A stretch of 57,542 nucleotides of DNA from an uncultured Planctomycetota bacterium. Its GTDB lineage: Bacteria > Planctomycetota > Phycisphaerae > UBA1845 > UTPLA1. Shown here one piece after another: positions 29,411-41,020 of this stretch. The notes beneath the pieces were generated by a model that was not told the DNA's origin, ran no database searches, and was given only the letters and a program-made list of their open reading frames with translations. Each line of letters opens with the position of its first letter. The stretch's first letter is position 1. The stretch spans positions 1 through 57,542 of the forward strand of contig CAADGE010000039.1 of assembly GCA_900696465.1 (NCBI GenBank), given 5' to 3'. Made by a program: the position numbers and the translations under genes.

Positions 29411-30874
29411 CTACCCCTTGATCACACCGATCGGCCTGAGCCGTGCGACCTTCTGGCTGATCCCCGCCTCGTGAAGCACGCCGACGACGGCCTGTACATC
29501 CTTATAGGCGTCGGGCTGTTCTTCCTCAAGACCGGTGCGACCGCGGGCGCGGGCAATGACGCCGCGATCGAGTAGCTCGCGCTGGATCGAGCGGCCCTTG
29601 CTGGCGCGAATCGCCGCGCCGCGGGACATCATACGTCCCGCGCCGTGGCAACTGCTGCCGAAGGTGTGCTCCATGCTGCCGGGCCGACCGACGAGCACGT
29701 AGCTGGCCCGACCCATGTCGCCGGGCACGAGCACCGGCTGGCCGATGCCGCGGTAGCGCGGCGGAAGCTCAGGGTGGCCCGGCGGGAAGGCCCGCGTTGC
29801 ACCCTTGCGATGGACGCACAGCTCGGTCGTGCGGCCGTTCACTTCGTATGGCTCCATCTTGGCAATGTTGTGGGCAACGTCGTAGATCAGGTGCATGCCC
29901 AGCCGCTCAGCGGGCTTCTCGAAGATCTCGGCAAATGTCTGGCGGGCCAGATGGGTCATGATCTGCCGATTGCACCATGCGTAGTTCGCCGCGGCGCGCA
30001 TTGCGCCAAGATACTTCTCGCCCTCTGGTGAATGCACTGGCGCGCAGACAAGCTGCCGGTCGGGCAGATCGATGCCATATTTTTTCGGGACGTGCTGCAA
30101 TTCTTTCAACGCATCCTCGCAGACCTGATATCCCAGGCCGCGCGAGCCGGAGTGGATCATGATCGTGACCAGCCCCTTTTCGAGGCCCATGACCTGCGCG
30201 GCGTGCGGATCGTCGACGTGATCGACGACCTGCACTTCGAGGAAGTGGTTGCCGCTGCCGAGGGTACCGCACTGCGGGCCGCCGCGCTGGTATGCCGAAT
30301 CGGAGACATAGTCCGGCCTTGCGCCCCTGATGCAGCCACCGGCCTCGGTAACTTCGAGATCGCTCTCCCAGCCGAGGCCATGCTTGTTGACGACGTAGGA
30401 CGAGCCCTGCTCCATGAGCGTCCTGAGTTCGGCTTTGCTGAACTTGATGCGGCCGCCCTGGCCGACGCCGCAGGGGACGTTGGCGAATAGCCGGTCAACA
30501 AGTCGCTCGAGCCGCGGGCGGACTTCGTCGATCTTCAGGTCGGTGCGAAGGAGGCGGACGCCGCAGTTGATGTCGTAGCCGACGCCGCCGGGGCTGATGA
30601 CGCCGCCGTCGTCGGGGTCCGTCGCGGCGACACCGCCGATGCAGAAGCCGTAGCCCCAGTGGATGTCCGGCATGGCGAGCGAATACTTCACAATGCCGGG
30701 CAAACAGGCGACATTGGCGACCTGCTCAGGGGATTTGTCGCCGCGAATGGCGTCGATGAGGGCTCCATCTGCGTAGATAAGGCCGTCGACGCGCATGCCG
30801 GACTTGTACGACCGCGGGATACACCAGCGGCAGGCGTCGAGGCGATTCAATGGACCGGTGAAAGCGTCGGGCAT
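29411..30874 (-). CDS. rtcB: RtcB RNA-splicing ligase
   Basis: A 487-residue GTP- and Mn2+-dependent ligase that joins 2',3'-cyclic phosphate or 3'-phosphate RNA ends to 5'-OH ends; in bacteria it serves RNA repair. Visible ligands are Asp101 and Cys104 (GYDINCGVR), His210 (GSGNHFLEV), His241 (HSGSRGLG) and His335 (YDVAHN), and His410 in SSCHGAGRMMSR is the guanylate acceptor. The N-terminal part (LNRLDACRW, MRVDGLIYAD) matches the longer archaeal/eukaryotic-type chain, supporting the start at 30874. The archease gene lies 101 bases upstream. Its own 3' end is copied at 28368-28500. Confidence 0.97.
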   Translation of the reverse strand: MPDAFTGPLNRLDACRWCIPRSYKSGMRVDGLIYADGALIDAIRGDKSPEQVANVACLPGIVKYSLAMPDIHWGYGFCIGGVAATDPDDGGVISPGGVGYDINCGVRLLRTDLKIDEVRPRLERLVDRLFANVPCGVGQGGRIKFSKAELRTLMEQGSSYVVNKHGLGWESDLEVTEAGGCIRGARPDYVSDSAYQRGGPQCGTLGSGNHFLEVQVVDHVDDPHAAQVMGLEKGLVTIMIHSGSRGLGYQVCEDALKELQHVPKKYGIDLPDRQLVCAPVHSPEGEKYLGAMRAAANYAWCNRQIMTHLARQTFAEIFEKPAERLGMHLIYDVAHNIAKMEPYEVNGRTTELCVHRKGATRAFPPGHPELPPRYRGIGQPVLVPGDMGRASYVLVGRPGSMEHTFGSSCHGAGRMMSRGAAIRASKGRSIQRELLDRGVIARARGRTGLEEEQPDAYKDVQAVVGVLHEAGISQKVARLRPIGVIKG

Positions 30875-30975: not shown

Positions 30976-31401
30976 TCAGATATCCACAATAATCGTCGCC
31001 TCATAGCCGCCCTCGGTCTTTCGCACGGCCAGGTCGTGGTAGGTGATCGCCTTGACCTCCCGGTGATAGATGCTTCGCGTTGAGTCGATCGGGCAGAATC
31101 GGCCCTCAGCACGGAGCACTCGATCGCTGAACTCGCTAACTGTCACTTCACAGAATATCTGGTGCCGCGTCTCGAAGTCGAGGAGCAGGCGCGCAAGATA
31201 ATCTCGCAGAAGGGTATCCGGGCTGTCACCGGAGAATTGCAGCAGGACCGGCGCGGAGGCGGCGCCGCATTCGGGGACCAGTTCGCCGATCACGGCGTAG
31301 AGGGCCTCGGCCGCAAGCGGAATTAACGCTTCAAGCGAGGGCGCATGAAGCCGAATACCCAGATCGGCTGTGTGGTCGAAGAGTTCGTAACGAGGCAACA
31401 T
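30976..31401 (-). CDS. Archease, RtcB activating protein
   Basis: The ATG at 31401 begins MLPRYELFDHTADLGIRLHA, the hallmark archease start (FDHTAD); the frame is open much further upstream but that part is the antisense of a terminator and another gene. At 141 residues it has family length. It ends with YHREVKAITYHDLAVRKTEGGYEATIIVDI, again standard. Archease binds metal and speeds RtcB guanylation and turnover. The conserved acidic residues (Asp in HTAD and the C-terminal VDI) are present. It lies upstream of rtcB in the same direction, the usual pairing. Confidence 0.95.
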   Translation of the reverse strand: MLPRYELFDHTADLGIRLHAPSLEALIPLAAEALYAVIGELVPECGAASAPVLLQFSGDSPDTLLRDYLARLLLDFETRHQIFCEVTVSEFSDRVLRAEGRFCPIDSTRSIYHREVKAITYHDLAVRKTEGGYEATIIVDI

Positions 31402-31480
31402 GAAACGTGTTCTACCGCGCCTCCTACATCCGGGCGAATGTCGCGGCAGCCGGTTCCACAAGCAGGCGAGCGGTTCTGTT

Positions 31481-31525
31481 AAAAGACCGACGGCCGCTGG
31501 ACGTCGGAGACACCAGCGGCCGTCG
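31481..31525 (-). terminator. Intrinsic terminator for the dockerin-protein gene
   Basis: A 13-bp GC-rich stem (CGACGGCCGCTGG and its complement, loop of 12 bases) is followed on the minus strand by TCTTTTAAC. It lies about 30 bases past the stop of the leftward gene at 31556-33565 and separates it from archease. Confidence 0.8.
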
Positions 31526-31555
31526 GGGGCACACGTGACGAGCTGAAGGTTTTCG

Positions 31556-33565
31556 TCAGCAGCCGCCCGCCAGGAGGCAGTTGACGAAATTGGTGACGTC
31601 GCTGACGCCGATCTCGCAATCCTTGAGAAGCTGGAGATCGCCCGCACATTTTTCAAGCGGGGTACCTGCGCCCGACATCAGGATCTCGACGAAGCGGGCA
31701 ACGTCCTCGCCGTTGACGAAGCCGTCACCGTTGACATCGCCTCGAACGCACGACAGGGCCGACGGCACCTGGGCGCTGACCGACACGAAGCTCGGCGAGC
31801 CCGGCTTGAAGAGGCCGACCTTGATGGTGCCGGCAGTCGGCGGCGTCGCGGCATCGAAGCGGAAGTTGTAGAGCGTGGCCCATCGCAGGGCGTTGGCGTT
31901 GCTGTTCTGGCCGAATGTCTGGGTCGCCCAGATCACTTGATCCGGAAGGACCGAGCCGGGCCAGTCGGTTCCGTCGTATGGCTCACCGCTGTGATAGAAG
32001 ACGTCATGGAAGCCGAGATTCGTGACGCCGACGCATTCAGGCGTGGTGACCGAGAAGAACTGGGCGCCGCGTTCGCTGTTCATGTTGAACAGGGCATACT
32101 CGTAGTGCCAGGAGCCGTCCTCATTCTCGGATACCTTGTAGCCAAGGAAGAAGCGACCGTCGCTGGGGATGTCGAAAGGTACGATGGTCACGTCGGCGTC
32201 GTAGGCGCGCCACGCGTAGATTGCTGGCTGTTCGCGAACCGTGTTGGCGCCAGGAACTGCACCAGTCACCCAGTTAAGCGGGTAGTTGGTGACGTTGTTA
32301 ACGACCGTGACACGGCGCCAGGATGCGTTGTTGTGAAGATTGCCGGCGGCGGAGTCGTCGTTGGCGACGTACTGGCCTTCAACAAAGTAAAGGGCGCCGG
32401 CGTTCAACATGGGGTTGACGTCTGCCGCGAGGGCCTGGAGGCGACCTCGGACCGTCGAAGAACCACTGGGTGAGGCATGCGGATCGGGGAAGGTGCCGAG
32501 GTATGGATTGACCGGCGACTTGGGACCCAGATTGCCGAATGCGCCGTTGCGGGTAGCCGTGTAGGGATCGCTGCAGTTGACGCCCAGCTGGCTGCAACAG
32601 CCGCCGCAGACCGGCTGGCAACCGGAGGTGCAAAGCCCCTGCTGAAGTGCACAGAAGCCGTACTTGAGCCACGACTGCCCGATCTGCTCGAAACGGCCGT
32701 AATTCGTGCCCGGCTCAGTCTTCAGGCGGAACAGGTTCTGACCGATGACCGGGTGCATGTTCGGCACGCCATCGAACCAGTTGAGCGGAACGGTGCCGAT
32801 GTTGCAGGAGGTCGTGCCGACCGAGTAGGCATAAACACCGCTCGTGCTTCCCCAGCTTCGGGGTTGACCGGCGCTGTCTCCGGTGAGTGCGCCGACGATC
32901 ACGTCGGCACCGGCACGCGGCGATGCGCCTTCCGACGACTGCGGTGGCGTGAAGAACTGGGCATCGCTCAGTGTGGCGTCGGCGATGATCTCAAGGTGGC
33001 CAGCCGGCATGCCAGCATAGGACTTGTCCTGAAGGACTTCAGTGGCGAAGGAATCGGAGATCACCAGGTCCGCAGCGAACGTCAATCGCCCTGTCGCGGG
33101 ATCCATCTCCATCGAGAGGCCGTCGGCTGCGGACTGGAAGATGACCCGGTGCACATCCAGGCCGTCGATCACGGCGATCGTGCGGCCGGAGACCGAGATG
33201 CTGAAGTTACCGATACGAAGCTGATCGGGCTGATCCGCGATGGAAAGCAGCAGGGCCTCTCCGGTCACAGTCAGGGCGCCGCCCACTTGGTGGATCTGAT
33301 CATCCAGGTAGGTCAGTTGAAAGTTGCTCACCGAAGTGTTGATCGGTGAAACCCAGGTCGCATCGGAAGCCGTCGAGAGACCGAGCGCACCAAGCGCCTG
33401 AGAATCGAACGTGAGCGAGGCATGACCGGATGTGACCGACCACGCCGCGAGGGATTCGAAGGACTTGTCGAGCCGCGTATCGGCCGCGACGGGCGAAACC
33501 AGCAATCCTGCCAGGGCAACGAGGCCGAGGAATGCCGCGATGGGTTTCGTGGGGGCTCTTAGCAT
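31556..33565 (-). CDS. Secreted protein with C-terminal dockerin-like pair (paralog A)
   Basis: ATG 33565 has an AAGGAG site and starts a signal peptide (MLRAPTKPIAAFLGLVALAG to VAAD); upstream open frame ignored. The 669-residue protein has a beta-rich N-terminal third, then a module shared with the next gene: ADVIVGAL, TTSCNIGTVPLNWFDG, HPVIGQNLFRLK, RFEQIGQSWLKYGF, a cysteine-rich patch and LGPKSPVNPYLG. The end is a dockerin-like EF-hand pair (GDVNGDGFVNGEDVARFVEIL, then a second less canonical half) finishing VNCLLAGGC. The shared module has no name known to me. No cohesin is visible in the window, so the dockerin partner is unknown. Confidence 0.85.
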   Translation of the reverse strand: MLRAPTKPIAAFLGLVALAGLLVSPVAADTRLDKSFESLAAWSVTSGHASLTFDSQALGALGLSTASDATWVSPINTSVSNFQLTYLDDQIHQVGGALTVTGEALLLSIADQPDQLRIGNFSISVSGRTIAVIDGLDVHRVIFQSAADGLSMEMDPATGRLTFAADLVISDSFATEVLQDKSYAGMPAGHLEIIADATLSDAQFFTPPQSSEGASPRAGADVIVGALTGDSAGQPRSWGSTSGVYAYSVGTTSCNIGTVPLNWFDGVPNMHPVIGQNLFRLKTEPGTNYGRFEQIGQSWLKYGFCALQQGLCTSGCQPVCGGCCSQLGVNCSDPYTATRNGAFGNLGPKSPVNPYLGTFPDPHASPSGSSTVRGRLQALAADVNPMLNAGALYFVEGQYVANDDSAAGNLHNNASWRRVTVVNNVTNYPLNWVTGAVPGANTVREQPAIYAWRAYDADVTIVPFDIPSDGRFFLGYKVSENEDGSWHYEYALFNMNSERGAQFFSVTTPECVGVTNLGFHDVFYHSGEPYDGTDWPGSVLPDQVIWATQTFGQNSNANALRWATLYNFRFDAATPPTAGTIKVGLFKPGSPSFVSVSAQVPSALSCVRGDVNGDGFVNGEDVARFVEILMSGAGTPLEKCAGDLQLLKDCEIGVSDVTNFVNCLLAGGC

Positions 33566-33703
33566 AGAATGAACTCCTTCTCCATAGGGGTGTCCAGCAG
33601 CCGCCGTGTCCCAAGGCAGCGAGTGACACCAAACCGCGCTGACATACGAAGCAGGGCCGGCAGACAACTGCCGACCCTGATCAGTAACCTATCAAAAATG
33701 TGA

Positions 33704-35179
33704 TCAACCACAGCCGCCGTTCAGGAGGCAATCCACGAACTCGGGGAGGTCATCCAGCAGGATCTGACCATCCGTCGGAAGCGCGAGATCACCGGCACAG
33801 CGCTCCCGGAAGGATGCGCCGGCATTGACCAGTCGCTCAACGAAGAGGGCGACGTCGAGACTGTCGACCGAACCGTCGCCGTTCATATCACCCCGCCAGC
33901 ACGGCATGGGCGAAAAGCCGAGCCCCAGAACCGTATCCGGTTGATTGGCGGCCGGCTTGAAGTAGCCCATGGTGATCTCGCCCTTTCCGGGCCAAGGCGG
34001 CACATCCGAATCGAAGCGGAAGTTGTACATCGTGCCCCATCGAATGGCATTGCCGCCGATGTTCTGATTGAAGGTGACGGTCTCCCAATTTACTTCGTTG
34101 TAGGAATGAACCGGCGGCCAATCTGTGCCGTCGCAATTGACGCCGCTCGGGCCGTCGCCGCTGTGGTAGTCGACATCACGAAAGCCGAGATTGGTGACGG
34201 TGGCGCCAGGCCGAATCGGCAGCGAGAAAGAGCGAATGGATCGATCGGAATTGAGATTCTGCAAGGCAAACTCGTAGTGCCACATACCGCCGCCCAGGTC
34301 CGTGGCCTGTGAACCGAGAAGCACCAGGGCCGTCCAGCCGTTGGCCTCGGCCGTCGTGACTTCGGAAATGAATACGGCCGGGTCGACGTCACGCCACGCG
34401 AAGATGGCGGCCTTTTCGCGCTGGGTCGCGCCCGTGCGAGCGAAGTCCCAAGAAGCTCCGCCGCCGGTGACCGACACAGGGCGGTAGGAAGCGTTGTTGT
34501 TCTTGTTGCCTGCCGCGGCATCGTCAGCGGCGACGTACTGGGCCTCGACAAAGTAACGTGTGGCGTTGATGCCACCTCCACCGGTAGACGGCTCAAGGTC
34601 CTCGATCTTGACCTGCAATCGACGAGCGACACTGCCGGAAAAGCCAGGAACCGTGACGCTGTGGGTGTGGACGCCGGTCGTGGCGTTGACCGCCCACTTG
34701 GGACCGAGGGCGCTCTGGCCGCCGTTTCGCGAGGAGGAATACGGATCGGAACAACCGACACCGAGGGTCGAACCATCCGTTCCGAAACAGGTAGAACAGC
34801 AGGCATAATCACTCAGAGCATAAAATCCGTGCTTAAGCCAGCTTTGCCCGAGCTGCTCGAATCGGCGCGTGCCGTCAACCAGTTTCAAGCGGAAGAGATT
34901 CTGGCCGATGACGGGATGGTTGATACCGCCGGACTGCCAAATGAGCGGCGTATTTCCGAGGTTGCAGGAGGTCGTGCCGACTGAGAAGGCCTCAATGCCA
35001 CCGAGACTGTTGTAGTTGGTGATGATGTCGTGCGAGAGCACGCCGACGATGACGTCCGGGCCGGTCGACTGGCCTGGTGTGCCCGGACATCCGGAAGCCC
35101 AGGCGCGTGAGGCCGCGAAGGTCATGAGGGAAGATGAGATTAAAACACAGAATAGCGAACGGGCAATAGAACGGAACAT
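33704..35179 (-). CDS. Secreted protein with C-terminal dockerin-like pair (paralog B)
   Basis: ATG 35179 follows GGAG and begins a signal peptide (MFRSIARSLFCVLISSSLMT to AWAS). The 491-residue product is nearly all the shared module of paralog A (PDVIVGVL, TTSCNLGNTPLIWQSG, HPVIGQNLFRLK, RFEQLGQSWLKHGFYALS, CCSTCFG, GCSDPYSSSRNG), followed by a dockerin-like pair (GDMNGDGSVDSLDVALFVERL) ending VDCLLNGGCG. Unlike paralog A it lacks the extra N-terminal domain. The two genes lie in tandem with a gap of 138 bases, so a tandem duplication with domain loss or gain is likely. An imperfect hairpin at 33653-33678 follows the gene without a T run. Confidence 0.85.
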   Translation of the reverse strand: MFRSIARSLFCVLISSSLMTFAASRAWASGCPGTPGQSTGPDVIVGVLSHDIITNYNSLGGIEAFSVGTTSCNLGNTPLIWQSGGINHPVIGQNLFRLKLVDGTRRFEQLGQSWLKHGFYALSDYACCSTCFGTDGSTLGVGCSDPYSSSRNGGQSALGPKWAVNATTGVHTHSVTVPGFSGSVARRLQVKIEDLEPSTGGGGINATRYFVEAQYVAADDAAAGNKNNNASYRPVSVTGGGASWDFARTGATQREKAAIFAWRDVDPAVFISEVTTAEANGWTALVLLGSQATDLGGGMWHYEFALQNLNSDRSIRSFSLPIRPGATVTNLGFRDVDYHSGDGPSGVNCDGTDWPPVHSYNEVNWETVTFNQNIGGNAIRWGTMYNFRFDSDVPPWPGKGEITMGYFKPAANQPDTVLGLGFSPMPCWRGDMNGDGSVDSLDVALFVERLVNAGASFRERCAGDLALPTDGQILLDDLPEFVDCLLNGGCG

Positions 35180-35544
35180 GAAATCTCCAAGTGGCTCAGG
35201 GCTGGTGAAACAGAACTCCATGTGCTCTGCGCACATGGATACGATCAGCGTCGTGTCCAACTGGCTATCGGGAACCTGATGCGGTCGGGCAGGTTACAGA
35301 TCGGGCAGACCACCCCTCCTACGAAAAGAAGCTCACCTAACTTACAGTTTAACGATATCGGTTATGCCGATCAAGCCGCTTTTGGGACCTTGCCAGTGTT
35401 CCTGGGGAGGCCTGCCAGTAGGCACAAAAGTCCGCGAAAAAACCAGCAGAACCTCACGTCCATCGAAGCCGGCCGGAGCTATACGCCCCGGCACAGAAAC
35501 CATCGCCCTGTGAGTCGGGCAGGCGGCAGACCTCAGACAGGGGT
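35180..35544. other. Intergenic region, no gene seen
   Basis: These 365 bases hold no frame that looks coding. The promoter of the leftward dockerin gene should lie near its right side, but no consensus boxes are clear. Confidence 0.5.
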
Positions 35545-37485
35545 TCAGTATGCCGCGGCGGCACATCGAAGCGCCCCGTAGCGTCGCTGGCTCTCAGCGC
35601 AATAAACCGGGATGACTTCGACTTGATTCCCGAATTCTCGACGAAATGTCTCCACAGCCGCTCGGTCGAGGTCGGCGTAAAGGCCACCACAGGCCGGCAT
35701 GAGGTATTTACCTCGTGCATGAATTCCGTTGAGGTAATTCAGACTTCGATCGCCCTCGGCGAGACTTGGAACGGCGACCACCTTTATGCCGAGCGATTCC
35801 AGGGTGTGCCGCAGAGCAGCACGCTCAGCGTGCCTGCGCCGCAGGACATCCAGATACTCCCGATAGGCCTCGTTCGAAGGCGTGAACGTCGTATCCTGCA
35901 GTGCGGTCGCCAGGTCCATCGCCAGCAGGAAATGCTGGAAGTTCGCCACGCCGGGATCGACCAGACTCGTGGAGAAGTGAGCCGCGAGTGACTCGGGATA
36001 CTGCCCTGGGCGTACGGCATGTCGATCGACGGCCGCTCGCAGCAGGTTTGCGGCGTCAAGAATATCGTCTGCGGCAAGTTTATTATCCACGGTCTGAGAC
36101 GTCGTATCGTCCAAAAGACCGGTCTGTCGCAGGGCGCGTGCCCCGGTGCGCAACAGGATCGCCACGGCACTCGTCGTATCGTTCACGAAGGCAACGAGGC
36201 CACCCCCGACGCTGCGAAGTGACACCTCGTAATCGATGTGGTACGAGTTGGCGAACATCTCGATCTCCACACCTGCGTCGAATTCGACGGCGAAGGCATT
36301 CGAGACTTGCTTCCGCGTAAGACCCAGTGCGACGTTGCGGTAAATCTCGGCTTCGCCAATGAGGAGATAACGTGTCGCTGTCCGCGGGTCGGTGGCGAGG
36401 ATTACATTGCCGCCCTGGAAGAGCAGCGGGGATTGGATGACCGCGTGGCCCGCTGCCCGGAGACCATCGAGCAGCAGATTCTCGCCCGGCACGAGGATGG
36501 TGCCTTCCTCACCGCGATTGGCGTAACGCGGTGCGAGGGTGGCCGGCCGCTGTGTGCCGTCTGCGGCCGATGTAAGAATCCCCATCTTGCCATTGTCCTG
36601 TGCCCACTCGGCTACCGGTAGCTTCTCCGCAATAACCGTCAGTCGTGCATCTCCGGAAGCCGTCGACGAGGATGATTCATGAAGCCAGAGGCGAGCAAAG
36701 CCCAGGAAAGAGTTCACGTGTACGGCCTCGATGCTCACCAGGAACTGTGCATCCGGAAGTACTTCGATCAGTTGCCGACAGACATCGAGACCGCTGCCGT
36801 CGCCGATACCGCGCCAATAGTCTCCGCGCGGCAATTGGAGACGAACCAACGCGATATCGCGATCTTCCGACTCGCTCGTTGCGCGGAACTCCGGCGAGGA
36901 TTTTCGAAATTCGAATGGGAGCGCACGCAGCGTGTCGGCCAGTTCGTCCGCTGATCTGCCCGACGCCAGCAGTTGCTGCACGTATCCCACGATCGGATAG
37001 CGTTCCACCGACGAGGCGCCAGGAATGGGATAGTAGGCCAGCAGATCGACCGGCAGCCCCGTGCGACGAAGCAGATCGGCGTCTTCCGCTTCGCCGCGAT
37101 TGAGATTCGCCAGGCCGACGACTTCCACCACGCGGGCAAGCGTCAGCGGCAGACCGTCGATGGCCAATCGCTCGGCGACGATTCGTGCAGCGCGGTGCAT
37201 GTATGCCGGCGAGCGATCATCGGGCGCGTGAGAGGGCCAGAGTGCGGCGGACGAATCCGTGATCGGGGCGCGAAAACCGGGCAACGTCGGATGCCGCTCA
37301 GGAAGGGATGTCCAGTAGGCCGCGATCGAAGCGGGCGGCGTATGACGGATGACGCGGATTTGCGCGTCGATGCCGGTTGCGGGGCTATCTGCCACTTGCG
37401 AGCCAGCGCGTGACGCGATTACCGCAACAAGTATCAGCGCGAAGCTCCCCTTGTGGCATCGCGAGTGAGGGCGTTTCTTTATCAT
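35545..37485 (-). CDS. Probable secreted pentein-fold enzyme (agmatine/peptidylarginine deiminase-like)
   Basis: A hydrophobic N-terminus (residues 13-25, FALILVAVIASRAG) suggests export. The C-terminal half carries the guanidine-modifying pentein core in order: EWAQDNGKMGI (Asp297, like WxRDxGP), FQGGNVIL (358-360), SYHIDYEVSL (His416 and Asp418), SLNYLNGIHARGKYLMPACGGLYADLDR, and GALRCAAAAY (Cys641, the nucleophile position). This is the pattern of agmatine deiminase and the Porphyromonas-type peptidylarginine deiminase. A helical insert (about 430-570) and a long N-terminal part are unusual. It overlaps the upstream small membrane protein gene by four bases (ATGA). Substrate unknown; peptidyl or free guanidine is possible. 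Confidence 0.75.
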   Translation of the reverse strand: MIKKRPHSRCHKGSFALILVAVIASRAGSQVADSPATGIDAQIRVIRHTPPASIAAYWTSLPERHPTLPGFRAPITDSSAALWPSHAPDDRSPAYMHRAARIVAERLAIDGLPLTLARVVEVVGLANLNRGEAEDADLLRRTGLPVDLLAYYPIPGASSVERYPIVGYVQQLLASGRSADELADTLRALPFEFRKSSPEFRATSESEDRDIALVRLQLPRGDYWRGIGDGSGLDVCRQLIEVLPDAQFLVSIEAVHVNSFLGFARLWLHESSSSTASGDARLTVIAEKLPVAEWAQDNGKMGILTSAADGTQRPATLAPRYANRGEEGTILVPGENLLLDGLRAAGHAVIQSPLLFQGGNVILATDPRTATRYLLIGEAEIYRNVALGLTRKQVSNAFAVEFDAGVEIEMFANSYHIDYEVSLRSVGGGLVAFVNDTTSAVAILLRTGARALRQTGLLDDTTSQTVDNKLAADDILDAANLLRAAVDRHAVRPGQYPESLAAHFSTSLVDPGVANFQHFLLAMDLATALQDTTFTPSNEAYREYLDVLRRRHAERAALRHTLESLGIKVVAVPSLAEGDRSLNYLNGIHARGKYLMPACGGLYADLDRAAVETFRREFGNQVEVIPVYCAESQRRYGALRCAAAAY

Positions 37486-37973
37486 GACACGCTGCCCCCC
37501 TTTCGCATCGCGAGCACGATGCCGACTGCGAGAATGAACACGATTCCGATCCCGAGCGGAAGCCAGGCAAGTATGCGTCGATTCGGATCGGGCATTGCAG
37601 CAGCAGTCGTGGTCGAATCGTGCGAAGATGCTGCCGGTGGCGGCGGGACAGCCAAAGCAGGTCCGGAATCTCGGACGACCAGTCGAAGCTGCTGCTCGAA
37701 AGAGGACTGGATCACCCGGTCGGCAAGGCGCCGCAGATATGCCTCGGGTAAATGCAGTGATTCGAGGGTGGTGAGGCCTGCCGGCTGTCGAAGCAAGCCG
37801 GTGATCACATAGTTCTGCGCCGGTGTGCGCGGCGGAAGATCATCAGGATTCTCCGGCGATCGTGCCGCACAGACGGAGACAAGCGCGATGATCAAGAGCA
37901 TCATCGCCATCGAAGACTTGAGATCATGCCGGTAGATGGTCCGACCTCCGTGGGCTCGACGAATCGACGGCAT
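37482..37973 (-). CDS. Small membrane protein coupled to the pentein enzyme
   Basis: A 163-residue protein with an N-terminal hydrophobic segment (about 22-38, MAMMLLIIALVSVCAA), a middle domain (ITGLLRQPAGLTTLESLHLPEAYLRRLADRVIQ), a Pro/Ala/Ser/Thr-rich linker and a C-terminal membrane helix (ILAWLPLGIGIVFILAVGIVLA) with basic end. The layout, signal plus stalk plus anchor, would hold the middle domain outside. No ribosome site marks the start; an ATG at 37910 right before the hydrophobic segment is an alternative. The stop overlaps the start of the deiminase-like gene, so the two are probably made together. No family recognised. Confidence 0.7.
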   Translation of the reverse strand: MPSIRRAHGGRTIYRHDLKSSMAMMLLIIALVSVCAARSPENPDDLPPRTPAQNYVITGLLRQPAGLTTLESLHLPEAYLRRLADRVIQSSFEQQLRLVVRDSGPALAVPPPPAASSHDSTTTAAAMPDPNRRILAWLPLGIGIVFILAVGIVLAMRKGGSVS

Positions 37974-37996: not shown

Positions 37997-40900
37997 TCAG
38001 CCATGACTTCGACCGAGTTGGCGCGCCAGCAGCTCGGCGACATGCCAGGCCGCTGCCGGCGTATGGTGCTCAATCTGGCATCGGCAACTGAAACCGGAAA
38101 CGGCGATCGTCGCGTTCGGATGCCGCAGGATTGGAGGAAACAGTCGATGCTCGCCGACGGCAGCCGCCACGTCGTAGTGTTCTTTTTCATGACCGAACGA
38201 ACCTGCCATGCCGCAGCAGCCGGAGTTTATCTCCCCGACAGCGTCACCGAAAAATGCCCGGAGGACGCTCATTGCATCCTCGGAGCCGACCAGTGCTTTC
38301 TGATGGCAGTGGGCGTGATAAAGAATTGCGGAAGGCAGTATGCGGGATGCGGAGCGATTCGCTCTTTCGTCGCTTCCGGAATCGAGGGCTCGTAAGGAGA
38401 GCGACTCAAGATCTTTTGCGAGGAAGGTCTCCAGCATCATCGCGTGATCGGCAATACCGCGTGCTTCAGGCGTACGAACGAGCTGGGGCAGTTCGTCCGT
38501 GAACGTCAGGATGCAGCTCGGCTCAGTCCCGAGAATGGGAATTCCCTGTGCGGCCAAGGGAGCAAGAACACGAACACACTTCTCTGTCTGGCGTTGCGCA
38601 TGATCAAGCAGGCCCTTGCTGATCGCGGGACGTCCGCAGCAGACCTCCGGAGGGATGATGACCTCGTAACCGAGCGCTTCGAGAACCTGGACGGTGGCGA
38701 TGCCGACCTGCGGCGTAAAGTAGTTCGTCCAGGTATCGACGAAATACACGACCCGCATGTCATTTCTATTGCTTCTCGATCTCGGATGCTGGATTGATCC
38801 GAAACCGGCGGATTGCAATCTGTCTGCGTTGGTACTCCTGCGGCTGCTGTACCAGTCTCGAAACGTCTGATGCGCCAGTCGCGGCGGCGGTATTCGTCGA
38901 TCCAGGCCGATCCAGCGATCAAGCAGCGCACGCACCCATCGGCTTTGTCCGACGGCATTGGCCAGCGGCGCGACATGACTCGCCCAGCGGCACCATTCTG
39001 CAGTGTGCGCAATGAGTCGGCTGCGCAGCGGGACACCGATCTGCCGATGCGCGTGGTGCTGCCACTCGGCCTTCAGTCGGGCCATGTCCACGCCAGTCGG
39101 ACACTCCGACTTGCATGCCTTGCATGACAGGCACAGGTCCATCACCTCCGGCAGGGCCGGGTCCTCCAGTCCATCAAGCAACTCGCGATTAGAAAGTGCC
39201 ATCCGTAAGGCATTAGCCCGCGCCCGTGTCGTATGTCGCTCATCGCCGGTCGCCATGTAGGAGGGGCACATCGTGCCGACGAGCCGCTGGCGGCACTGTC
39301 CGACACCGCTGCACATTTCCGCCAGTCCGGCCATGCCGCCGTGGGATGAAAAATCCAGCACGGTCAGCGGCTGCTCGGCGCAGTAATCCGACCCGTAACG
39401 AAATTGACCGATCATCGGAAGCGGATCGACGATCTTTCCGGGGTTGAGGATGTTGTGCGGATCGAACGCTGCTTTTATTCGTCGAAAGGCCTCGATGATC
39501 TTCGGGCCGTACATTTTCTCCAGCCAGCAGGATCGAAGGATTCCGTCGCCGTGCTCGCCGGTCATGGTGCCGCCGAACTCGAGTGCGAGCGAGCTGATGC
39601 GATCGGCGACCCGGTGCATCTTCGCGATGTCGCCGGCGTCTTTGAGATTCAGAATCGGCTTGACGTGAAGACAGCCGACACTTGCGTGTGCGTAATAACT
39701 CGATTCGGGCACGCCCTCTTCCGCGAGCACCTGCATGAATCGTGCGATGTAATCGCGCAACCGCGCGGGATCGACGGCCGTGTCTTCAACGAAGTCGTAA
39801 GTCTGCCGATCGCCGGGGCGCGACATCAGGAGGCCCAGCCCGCTCTTGCGGATGTGCCAGACGGATTCCTGCTCGGCGGCGTCGGTGAGGATGGGCCATG
39901 CGTAGCCCATGCTGCGGGACTTCAGATCCACAGCGAGGGTTTTGAGACGTTGCGTAAGTCGTCCAGCGTCGTCATCGTAAAGCTCAATGATGAGCACGCC
40001 CTGCGGGTCGCCTTCGATGAGCCAGCGACGGCGACGCATCACGGGATTTGTCCGGGCTGCGTCCAGTATCAGCTTGTCGAGCAGTTCGACGGCGGCGGGC
40101 TGGTGCTCAAGCGTTGCCGGTGTCGCGGAAAGGGCATCGAGCAGATCGCCAAAGTGAGCGACGACCAGCCCTTTGTATCCGGGTAGCGGCGTGAGCTGCA
40201 ACACGGCGCCGACAATGATCGCGAGCGTGCCTTCGCTTCCACAAAGGAGCGACTGGACGTTGACGCGCCCATCCGGCTCAACGCGGAGCCGATCCAGTGC
40301 ATACCCCCCGTTTCGACGCATCACCTTCGGAAAGCGTGCAGCGATCTCAGTCGAGTACTCCTCCGTGATGCGCCGCAACGTTTCCTCGCTTTGTCGGTCC
40401 AAGGCGCCGTCGTCGGACAGCGACAAACCACGCTGCGATTCAGGACACGTCGAGAAATCGCCCCAGCTTCGCCGCGAGCCGTCGGAGAGCACCACGTCCA
40501 GCGCAGCTACGTGGTCGACCGTTCTGCCGTACATCACCGAGTGAGCTCCGCAGGAGTTGTTGGCAATCATTCCGCCGATGGTCGCCCGGCTGCTGGTGGC
40601 CACGTCCGGCGCGAAGTGCAACCCGTATGGCGCCAGAGCCGCGTTGAGTTCGTCGAGCACGACGCCCGGCTCGACCACGGCCGTGCGCGATTCCGGATCG
40701 ATCTGAAGGATACGGTTGAGATAACGCGAGCAGTCGAGTTGCAATCCACGATTGACTGCGCCGCCGGCCAGACCGGTGCCTGCACCGCGTGCAGTGATCG
40801 GAATTCGATGGCGAGCACACGAGCGCACAGCCGCCTGTACGTCTTCTACGCTACGCGGGAAGACGACGCCATCGGGCACGATTTCGTAGATGCTGGCGTC

Positions 40901-41020
40901 GGTGGCGTAGATGGCGCGGGTCAGTCGATCGTCTCGGATTTCACCGCGCAGCTCGCCGCGCAATTCGTCGATGGCGCGACGCAACGAAACGTGTGAACTA
41001 TCGATGCTCATCCGGCGCAT
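37997..41020 (-). CDS. FAD-linked oxidase/iron-sulfur fusion, YdiJ-like 2-hydroxyacid dehydrogenase
   Basis: A 1007-residue protein of the length and layout of YdiJ (D-2-hydroxyglutarate dehydrogenase). An FAD-binding-4 domain (about 45-225; PITARGAGTGLAGGAVN, ATSSRATIGGMIANNSCGAHSV) is followed by an FAD oxidase C domain with TGEHGDGILRS. Then come two iron-sulfur motifs (CSGVGQCRQRLVGTMCPSY and CLSCKACKSECPTGVD) and two CCG-type heterodisulfide-reductase segments (EVCCGRPAISKGLLDHA, GCCGMAGSFGHEKEHY). It would oxidise a D-2-hydroxyacid and pass electrons to the quinone pool. Both M1 and M4 could be the start. The gene lies 23 bases before the small membrane protein and may share its transcript. 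Confidence 0.9.
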   Translation of the reverse strand: MRRMSIDSSHVSLRRAIDELRGELRGEIRDDRLTRAIYATDASIYEIVPDGVVFPRSVEDVQAAVRSCARHRIPITARGAGTGLAGGAVNRGLQLDCSRYLNRILQIDPESRTAVVEPGVVLDELNAALAPYGLHFAPDVATSSRATIGGMIANNSCGAHSVMYGRTVDHVAALDVVLSDGSRRSWGDFSTCPESQRGLSLSDDGALDRQSEETLRRITEEYSTEIAARFPKVMRRNGGYALDRLRVEPDGRVNVQSLLCGSEGTLAIIVGAVLQLTPLPGYKGLVVAHFGDLLDALSATPATLEHQPAAVELLDKLILDAARTNPVMRRRRWLIEGDPQGVLIIELYDDDAGRLTQRLKTLAVDLKSRSMGYAWPILTDAAEQESVWHIRKSGLGLLMSRPGDRQTYDFVEDTAVDPARLRDYIARFMQVLAEEGVPESSYYAHASVGCLHVKPILNLKDAGDIAKMHRVADRISSLALEFGGTMTGEHGDGILRSCWLEKMYGPKIIEAFRRIKAAFDPHNILNPGKIVDPLPMIGQFRYGSDYCAEQPLTVLDFSSHGGMAGLAEMCSGVGQCRQRLVGTMCPSYMATGDERHTTRARANALRMALSNRELLDGLEDPALPEVMDLCLSCKACKSECPTGVDMARLKAEWQHHAHRQIGVPLRSRLIAHTAEWCRWASHVAPLANAVGQSRWVRALLDRWIGLDRRIPPPRLAHQTFRDWYSSRRSTNADRLQSAGFGSIQHPRSRSNRNDMRVVYFVDTWTNYFTPQVGIATVQVLEALGYEVIIPPEVCCGRPAISKGLLDHAQRQTEKCVRVLAPLAAQGIPILGTEPSCILTFTDELPQLVRTPEARGIADHAMMLETFLAKDLESLSLRALDSGSDERANRSASRILPSAILYHAHCHQKALVGSEDAMSVLRAFFGDAVGEINSGCCGMAGSFGHEKEHYDVAAAVGEHRLFPPILRHPNATIAVSGFSCRCQIEHHTPAAAWHVAELLARQLGRSHG

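Follow-up and report, generated by a model that had tools for sequence, protein, structure and literature searches.

The window analysed here, a stretch of 57,542 nucleotides from an uncultured Planctomycetota bacterium (contig CAADGE010000039.1), encodes a pentein-type enzyme that is probably an exported peptidyl-arginine deiminase, tethered by a partner protein and encoded together with its own protein substrates. This proposal is built on the invariant active site of the enzyme, on its near-constant association with a small partner module, and on one arginine of neighbouring proteins, here called N proteins, whose presence tracks that of the enzyme.

Five genes follow one another on the minus strand. 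First in transcription order comes a gene (37997-41020) for a protein of 1007 aa that has FAD-oxidase and 4Fe-4S domains; it is followed by those for the partner protein of 163 aa (37482-37973), the enzyme of 646 aa (35545-37485), N protein 1 of 518 aa (33704-35260), and N protein 2 of 703 aa (31556-33667). The enzyme and partner genes lie exactly where the original prediction had placed them. Both N proteins are presumably secreted, end in a dockerin-like tail scoring below the Pfam cut-off, and are candidate substrates of the enzyme; the proposed modification sites are Arg178 of N protein 1 (codon 34727-34729, within CSDPYSSSRNG) and Arg373 of N protein 2 (codon 32549-32551, within CSDPYTATRNG). 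Two other minus-strand genes near the N genes (29411-30874 and 30976-31656) resemble by eye those of the known RtcB RNA ligase-archease pair.

The AlphaFold model of the enzyme, based on a 47-row alignment, had a pLDDT of 91.4 and a pTM of 0.90. It has the pentein fold anticipated from the sequence, matching agmatine deiminases, the Porphyromonas gingivalis enzyme PPAD, and animal PADs. The parts singled out earlier as unusual are also present in the model: the long N-terminal part has helices within about 94-187, and the insert, also helical, spans about 437-564. Foldseek matched the model to 1xkn (E 3e-12), PPAD 6i0x (E 2e-10), and PAD3 7d8n (E 6e-6). In the VIA comparison, Z was 26.9 for agmatine deiminase 2ewo (311 aligned residues, rmsd 3.5), 26.2 for PPAD 6i0x (295 aligned, rmsd 3.2), and 21.9 for human PAD3 7dan (303 aligned, rmsd 3.8); judged by the modelled fold, agmatine deiminase and PPAD are equally close to the enzyme. 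Single-sequence searches of the PDB and of genome_contigs with the enzyme returned nothing; profile searches of both did match, weakly in the PDB (best E 0.0057). For the helical N-terminal part, nothing credible was found in the PDB.

The claimed core motifs, Asp297, Gln357-Gly-Gly-Asn, His416, Asp418, and Cys641, were all located. In a non-redundant set of 47 homologues, whose pairwise identities run from 24 to 77% (median 37%), the catalytic positions are invariant in gap-free rows: Asp297 in 46/46, His416 in 47/47, Asp418 in 46/46, and Cys641 in 46/46. The original prediction had staked itself on the conservation of Cys641 and His416, and this expectation is borne out. A fifth invariant residue that it had not named, Asn586 (46/46), falls in the column where PPAD-like proteins have their Asn, and Gln357, Gly358, Gly359, and Arg320 are likewise the same in all 47 homologues. 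The modelled fold together with the Asp, His-x-Asp, and Cys residues assigns the enzyme to the guanidine-modifying pentein superfamily.

Alignment further indicates that the enzyme has the PPAD-type catalytic set of Asp, His, Asp, Asn, and Cys, which in PPAD itself consists of Asp130, His236, Asp238, Asn297, and Cys351 (PMC4893104). A profile alignment with seven PAD_porph proteins from related genomes and from the same genome brought WxxD, GGN, His-x-Asp, Asn, and the C-terminal Cys of both families into register (hhalign 97.5%, E 8e-12); one of these seven, L072 of a related genome, matches PPAD chains at E 2.7e-33. Against the PF04371 (PAD_porph) model the window enzyme scored 16.8 bits (E 0.0043), in its C-terminal part only and below the curated cut-off of 25 bits. 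A paralogue in the same genome scored 48.9 bits over 64-321 of 321, and 36 of the 47 family members matched at E <= 0.01. Neither the window enzyme nor, at E <= 0.01, the 47 members gave a Pfam match to PAD_N, PAD_M, or PAD_C, and the own genome gave none to PF19420 (DDAH-like).

At the N-terminus of the enzyme no 19-residue window exceeds 1.6 on the Kyte-Doolittle scale. The enzyme likely carries a signal peptide and is exported.

Translational coupling to an anchored protein, another element of the original prediction, is supported by a 4-base ATGA (37482-37485), in which the stop codon of the partner overlaps the start codon of the enzyme, and by the C-terminal membrane anchor of the partner. 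This protein consists of a hydrophobic N-terminus, a conserved 58-aa module (residues 47-104; 37662-37835, minus strand), a linker, and, at the C-terminus, a hydrophobic stretch with a basic tail behind it; its hydrophobic stretches begin at residues 18 and 138. An NCBIfam 'invert_tail' match to the hydrophobic N-terminus (E 3.6e-4, below cut-off) was judged spurious.

The pair is also well conserved, as the module, either fused or in a separate partner, was found for 40 of the 47 enzymes. In 24 it forms an N-terminal fusion of the enzyme (three of them weak, 13-15 bits), in 16 it is encoded by the gene just upstream, and in seven, including three enzymes cut at a contig end, it went undetected. 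All 16 split cases have the partner stop overlapping an in-frame ATG or GTG of the enzyme (ATGA in 13, GTGA in three), and all 16 split partners have a hydrophobic stretch within the last 70 residues and a basic end. Among fused forms, the N-terminus looks lipobox-like by eye in L003, L022, and L034, and has a hydrophobic stretch in L018. Every one of the 23 N-adjacent enzymes having an uncut upstream side is accompanied by the module. Because of this near-constant presence in either arrangement, the module looks like part of the working unit of the enzyme. A model of a fused module-enzyme protein is well folded, with a pLDDT of 89. At two loci (L013:2632-6444 and L017:3613-7710) 4Fe-4S domains (Fer4_5 and others), TPR repeats, and the module all precede the enzyme in a single frame of about 1270-1370 aa.

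How widely is this enzyme distributed? A search found it in 5 of 392 genomes of the phylum. The genome of the window holds a second copy, 40% identical (L006/L011, C46:240948-242753, plus strand), which has a coupled anchored partner of its own and no N protein within about 8 kb. With a profile built from six sequences and a limit of E <= 0.001, matches turned up in 34 of 101 close relatives; 24 of these were counted as carriers of the family, genes cut by a contig end included, and the other 10 gave weak C-terminal matches only, four such proteins proving on scanning to be PAD_porph proteins. In genome_contigs (84,980 species) 36 loci were found, all with titles of Planctomycetota or Verrucomicrobiota groups except L033 ('bacterium'), in a scan that runs on short patterns and so does not demonstrate absence from other groups. 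The suggestion that such a system would be new in this phylum has to be corrected, since the family occurs in 24 of the 101 close relatives searched and the PAD_porph cut-off is also passed by a second protein of this genome. The latter (L078, C48:67051-67995, minus strand) is a different protein, with a PAD_porph score of 116.7 bits, a YNRP..ND stretch resembling PPAD, and a repeat-like tail.

The N genes were located by profile searches, since a greedy choice of ORFs had concealed some of them. There are eight copies in the own genome (4.14 Mb), from which we derive a rough chance rate of N adjacency of 1.6% per gene. Taking a distance of up to 2.5 kb to the nearest N as adjacency, 25 of the 47 enzyme genes have an N neighbour, and in 24 of these 25 cases the two genes share a strand. 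No N was found near the other 22, some of which have flanks of 1.5 kb or less; these N-less loci include the own-genome paralogue, with more than 8 kb of flank on each side. At E <= 1e-30 the N family is present in 65 of the 101 relatives, namely in 24/24 enzyme genomes and 41/77 others. Beyond the dockerin-like tail no Pfam or NCBIfam model matched the N proteins, and the N profile found nothing credible among PDB sequences (best E 0.24). The N domain was also seen inside proteins of 1700-2120 aa (three examples: L088, L089, L090). A further conserved neighbour cluster (16 ORFs at 11 loci) was rejected, 15 of its 16 members being opposite-strand ORFs over enzyme or N genes; apart from enzyme and module, N, and that cluster, no conserved neighbour recurred in more than four loci.

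We set 26 N domains taken at enzyme loci against 10 from other places, requiring a residue in at least 85% of the former and at most 40% of the latter. One column met this threshold, the Arg of CSDPYxxxRNG, found in 25/26 N at enzyme loci and 1/10 elsewhere (Leu in seven). A larger set of 152 domains, which overlaps the first 26, comprised the N matches listed (one omitted), chosen regardless of residue, and the earlier loci. Here Arg occurs in 18/18 N within 5 kb of an enzyme gene, in 23/61 N elsewhere in enzyme genomes (Leu in 25), and in 1/73 N of enzyme-free genomes (Leu in 68). The column ranks first of 357 testable ones (Fisher 4e-18, next 7e-9), though these values treat related sequences as independent and other columns also reach p near 1e-8; the next-best value indicates how far relatedness alone inflates them.

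Counted by genome among the N sampled, Arg-N is present in 21/22 genomes with the enzyme and 1/34 without, where 'enzyme-free' means lacking an enzyme-family match and includes some genomes with PAD_porph proteins and some incomplete ones. The one enzyme-free genome with Arg-N (G396) is 75% complete. The one enzyme genome without it (G446) has no Arg-N in five sampled of its eight N, and neither module nor N was detected near its enzyme (L066). At a three-N locus (L026) one N has Gln at the column. These exceptions, like the enzyme genes near which no N was found, weigh against the proposal. A held-out set consisted of nine genomes whose N ranked below the matches listed (one G478 match excepted). 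Both enzyme genomes in it have Arg-N (G419 in 4/5 and G463 in 2/5 readable N, 6/10 in total), and 0/7 of the enzyme-free ones do (0/17 N).

The association of arginine and enzyme indicates dependence rather than chemistry, and the arginine might instead be a docking contact for the enzyme or its module, the residue modified being another one of N or part of another protein. Several enzyme genes with conserved active sites but no N nearby would fit such a role. Against it, enzymes of this class usually act on arginine, and arginine is what occupies the column most closely tied to the enzyme; it is also kept in a few N proteins (L146, L192, L232) whose surrounding DPY/NG motif has changed. We regard docking as unlikely.

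Somewhat less likely still is that Arg-N and enzyme descend as one cassette and co-occur for historical reasons. Two N clades (24 and 17 rows) do contain most Arg-N. However, an N tree built without the Arg column requires 13 changes of Arg, and starred branches force 10 or more of them; in one parsimony reconstruction Arg is gained nine times and lost four times, all Arg rows but that of G396 coming from enzyme genomes. Some small gains occur in enzyme genomes at a large distance from the enzyme gene or on a different contig (L205, L103, L160/L089), and the N sampled from enzyme-free genomes of the window organism's own family are without Arg, G396 again excepted. An independent-pairs test was not significant and is underpowered (median p 0.25, with about 3.5 pairs in line with the association and 0.2 contrary to it), which counts in favour of shared descent. 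With so few informative pairs the phylogeny-corrected association is suggestive, not proven.

An exported agmatine or free-arginine deiminase, serving nitrogen or polyamine metabolism with N as a passenger, appears improbable. Agmatine deiminases are among the top Foldseek and VIA matches, and less than one Z unit separates them from PPAD. However, in the plant agmatine deiminase the agmatine amine is described as held by Asp220 and, through water, by Asp89 (PMC6447857), and the counterparts in the window enzyme, located by counting from the shared His and Asp, are Ala412 and Ala292. In the family these two positions, found by counting and not from coordinates, have Ala, Ser, or Thr in 41 and 39 of 47 rows, and Asp is absent among the residues listed there, which cover 44 and 43 of the 47 rows. 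Moreover, the Glu of EGG in 1xkn aligns with the invariant Gln of the enzyme, at a position where PPAD has Thr. Agmatine conversion is therefore the less likely activity, given Ala or Ser in place of the amine-holding Asp residues, and it would leave the association of the N arginine unexplained. Peptidyl-arginine deimination, the other of the two activities offered in the original prediction, is favoured by the arginine column seen in the N proteins next to the enzyme. Arg320 (47/47) and Arg324 (40/47) lie 23 and 27 residues past Asp297, and PPAD Arg152 and Arg154, reported to bind the C-terminal carboxylate of the substrate, lie 22 and 24 residues past Asp130 (PMC4893104). This possible correspondence is a lead only, because the profile alignment is gapped in that stretch.

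In the explanation that we favour, peptidyl-arginine deimination of the N proteins would proceed as follows. The module, whether fused to the enzyme or carried by the separate partner with its C-terminal anchor, would hold or shape the enzyme at the outer face of a membrane. Asp297 and Asp418 would grip the guanidine, and Cys641, helped by His416, would attack the one arginine of CSDPYxxxRNG; ammonia would depart and water would free citrulline. A charged residue would thereby turn neutral, at a position where N of enzyme-free genomes mostly has leucine. The conversion may take place during or after export, and N may tolerate arginine at this position since it is modified. Conversion to citrulline is the simplest reading because the residue tracking the enzyme is arginine, the substrate of the class, and is mostly leucine where the enzyme is missing. 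It is very improbable, the points in its favour being the tethering and the large neighbouring proteins only, that the Cys-bound intermediate is also released by an amine of a neighbouring protein presented by the module, so that a substituted guanidine cross-links the N proteins or binds them to the cell surface.

We propose that the enzyme works like a peptidylarginine deiminase with the PPAD catalytic set, and is distinguished by its helical additions, its near-constant module, and its linked candidate substrates. With PPAD (PF04371) it shares the pentein fold, the five catalytic residues in the same order, and a residue without acidic character just ahead of GGN (Thr for PPAD, Gln for the window enzyme); both have arginines about 22-27 residues past the first catalytic Asp, which may be counterparts. 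PPAD is secreted and the enzyme here is probably exported. In contrast, identity in structural alignments is 14-15%, the helical N-terminal part and helical insert are features of the enzyme described here, and we know of no partner module for PPAD. The proposed site is moreover internal, whereas PPAD is described as acting on C-terminal arginines (PMC4893104). Agmatine deiminases (iminohydrolases) have the same fold and the catalytic Asp, His, Asp, and Cys, and differ from the enzyme in its probable export, helical additions, QGG for EGG, and amine-holding Asp not found by position. The animal and cyanobacterial-type PADs (PADI) are similar in the catalytic pentein domain (VIA Z 18.6-21.9) and in having protein arginine as substrate, here a proposed one, while PAD_N, PAD_M, and PAD_C were missing from the enzyme in Pfam scans. 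The citrulassin PAD of Streptomyces (PMC12971885) is also bacterial and acts on one defined arginine of a peptide, much as is proposed here for the N arginine. We set it apart by its description, in which the substrate is a lasso peptide and the PAD gene lies outside the cluster, whereas here the putative substrates are larger proteins encoded adjacent to the enzyme.

A survey of PADs reports PPAD- and Giardia-type genes to be more widespread than thought, and its main text does not mention Planctomycetes or Verrucomicrobia (PMC8826395). In the open-access literature searched, nothing linked citrullination or peptidylarginine deiminase with planctomycetes. The literature covered on bacterial citrullination concerns chiefly PPAD, described as acting also on P. 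gingivalis's own proteins (PMC12958381), and the citrulassin lasso peptides, for which a bacterial PAD is reported to act on the bacterium's own product (PMC12971885).

To these the present analysis adds a pentein family of Planctomycetota and Verrucomicrobiota which has a conserved module, and about half of whose genes adjoin proteins with a single arginine that tracks the enzyme. If the proposed activity is true, it would represent a protein-maturation step in bacteria whose exact site can be read from the DNA, and it would give a first handle on the N proteins.
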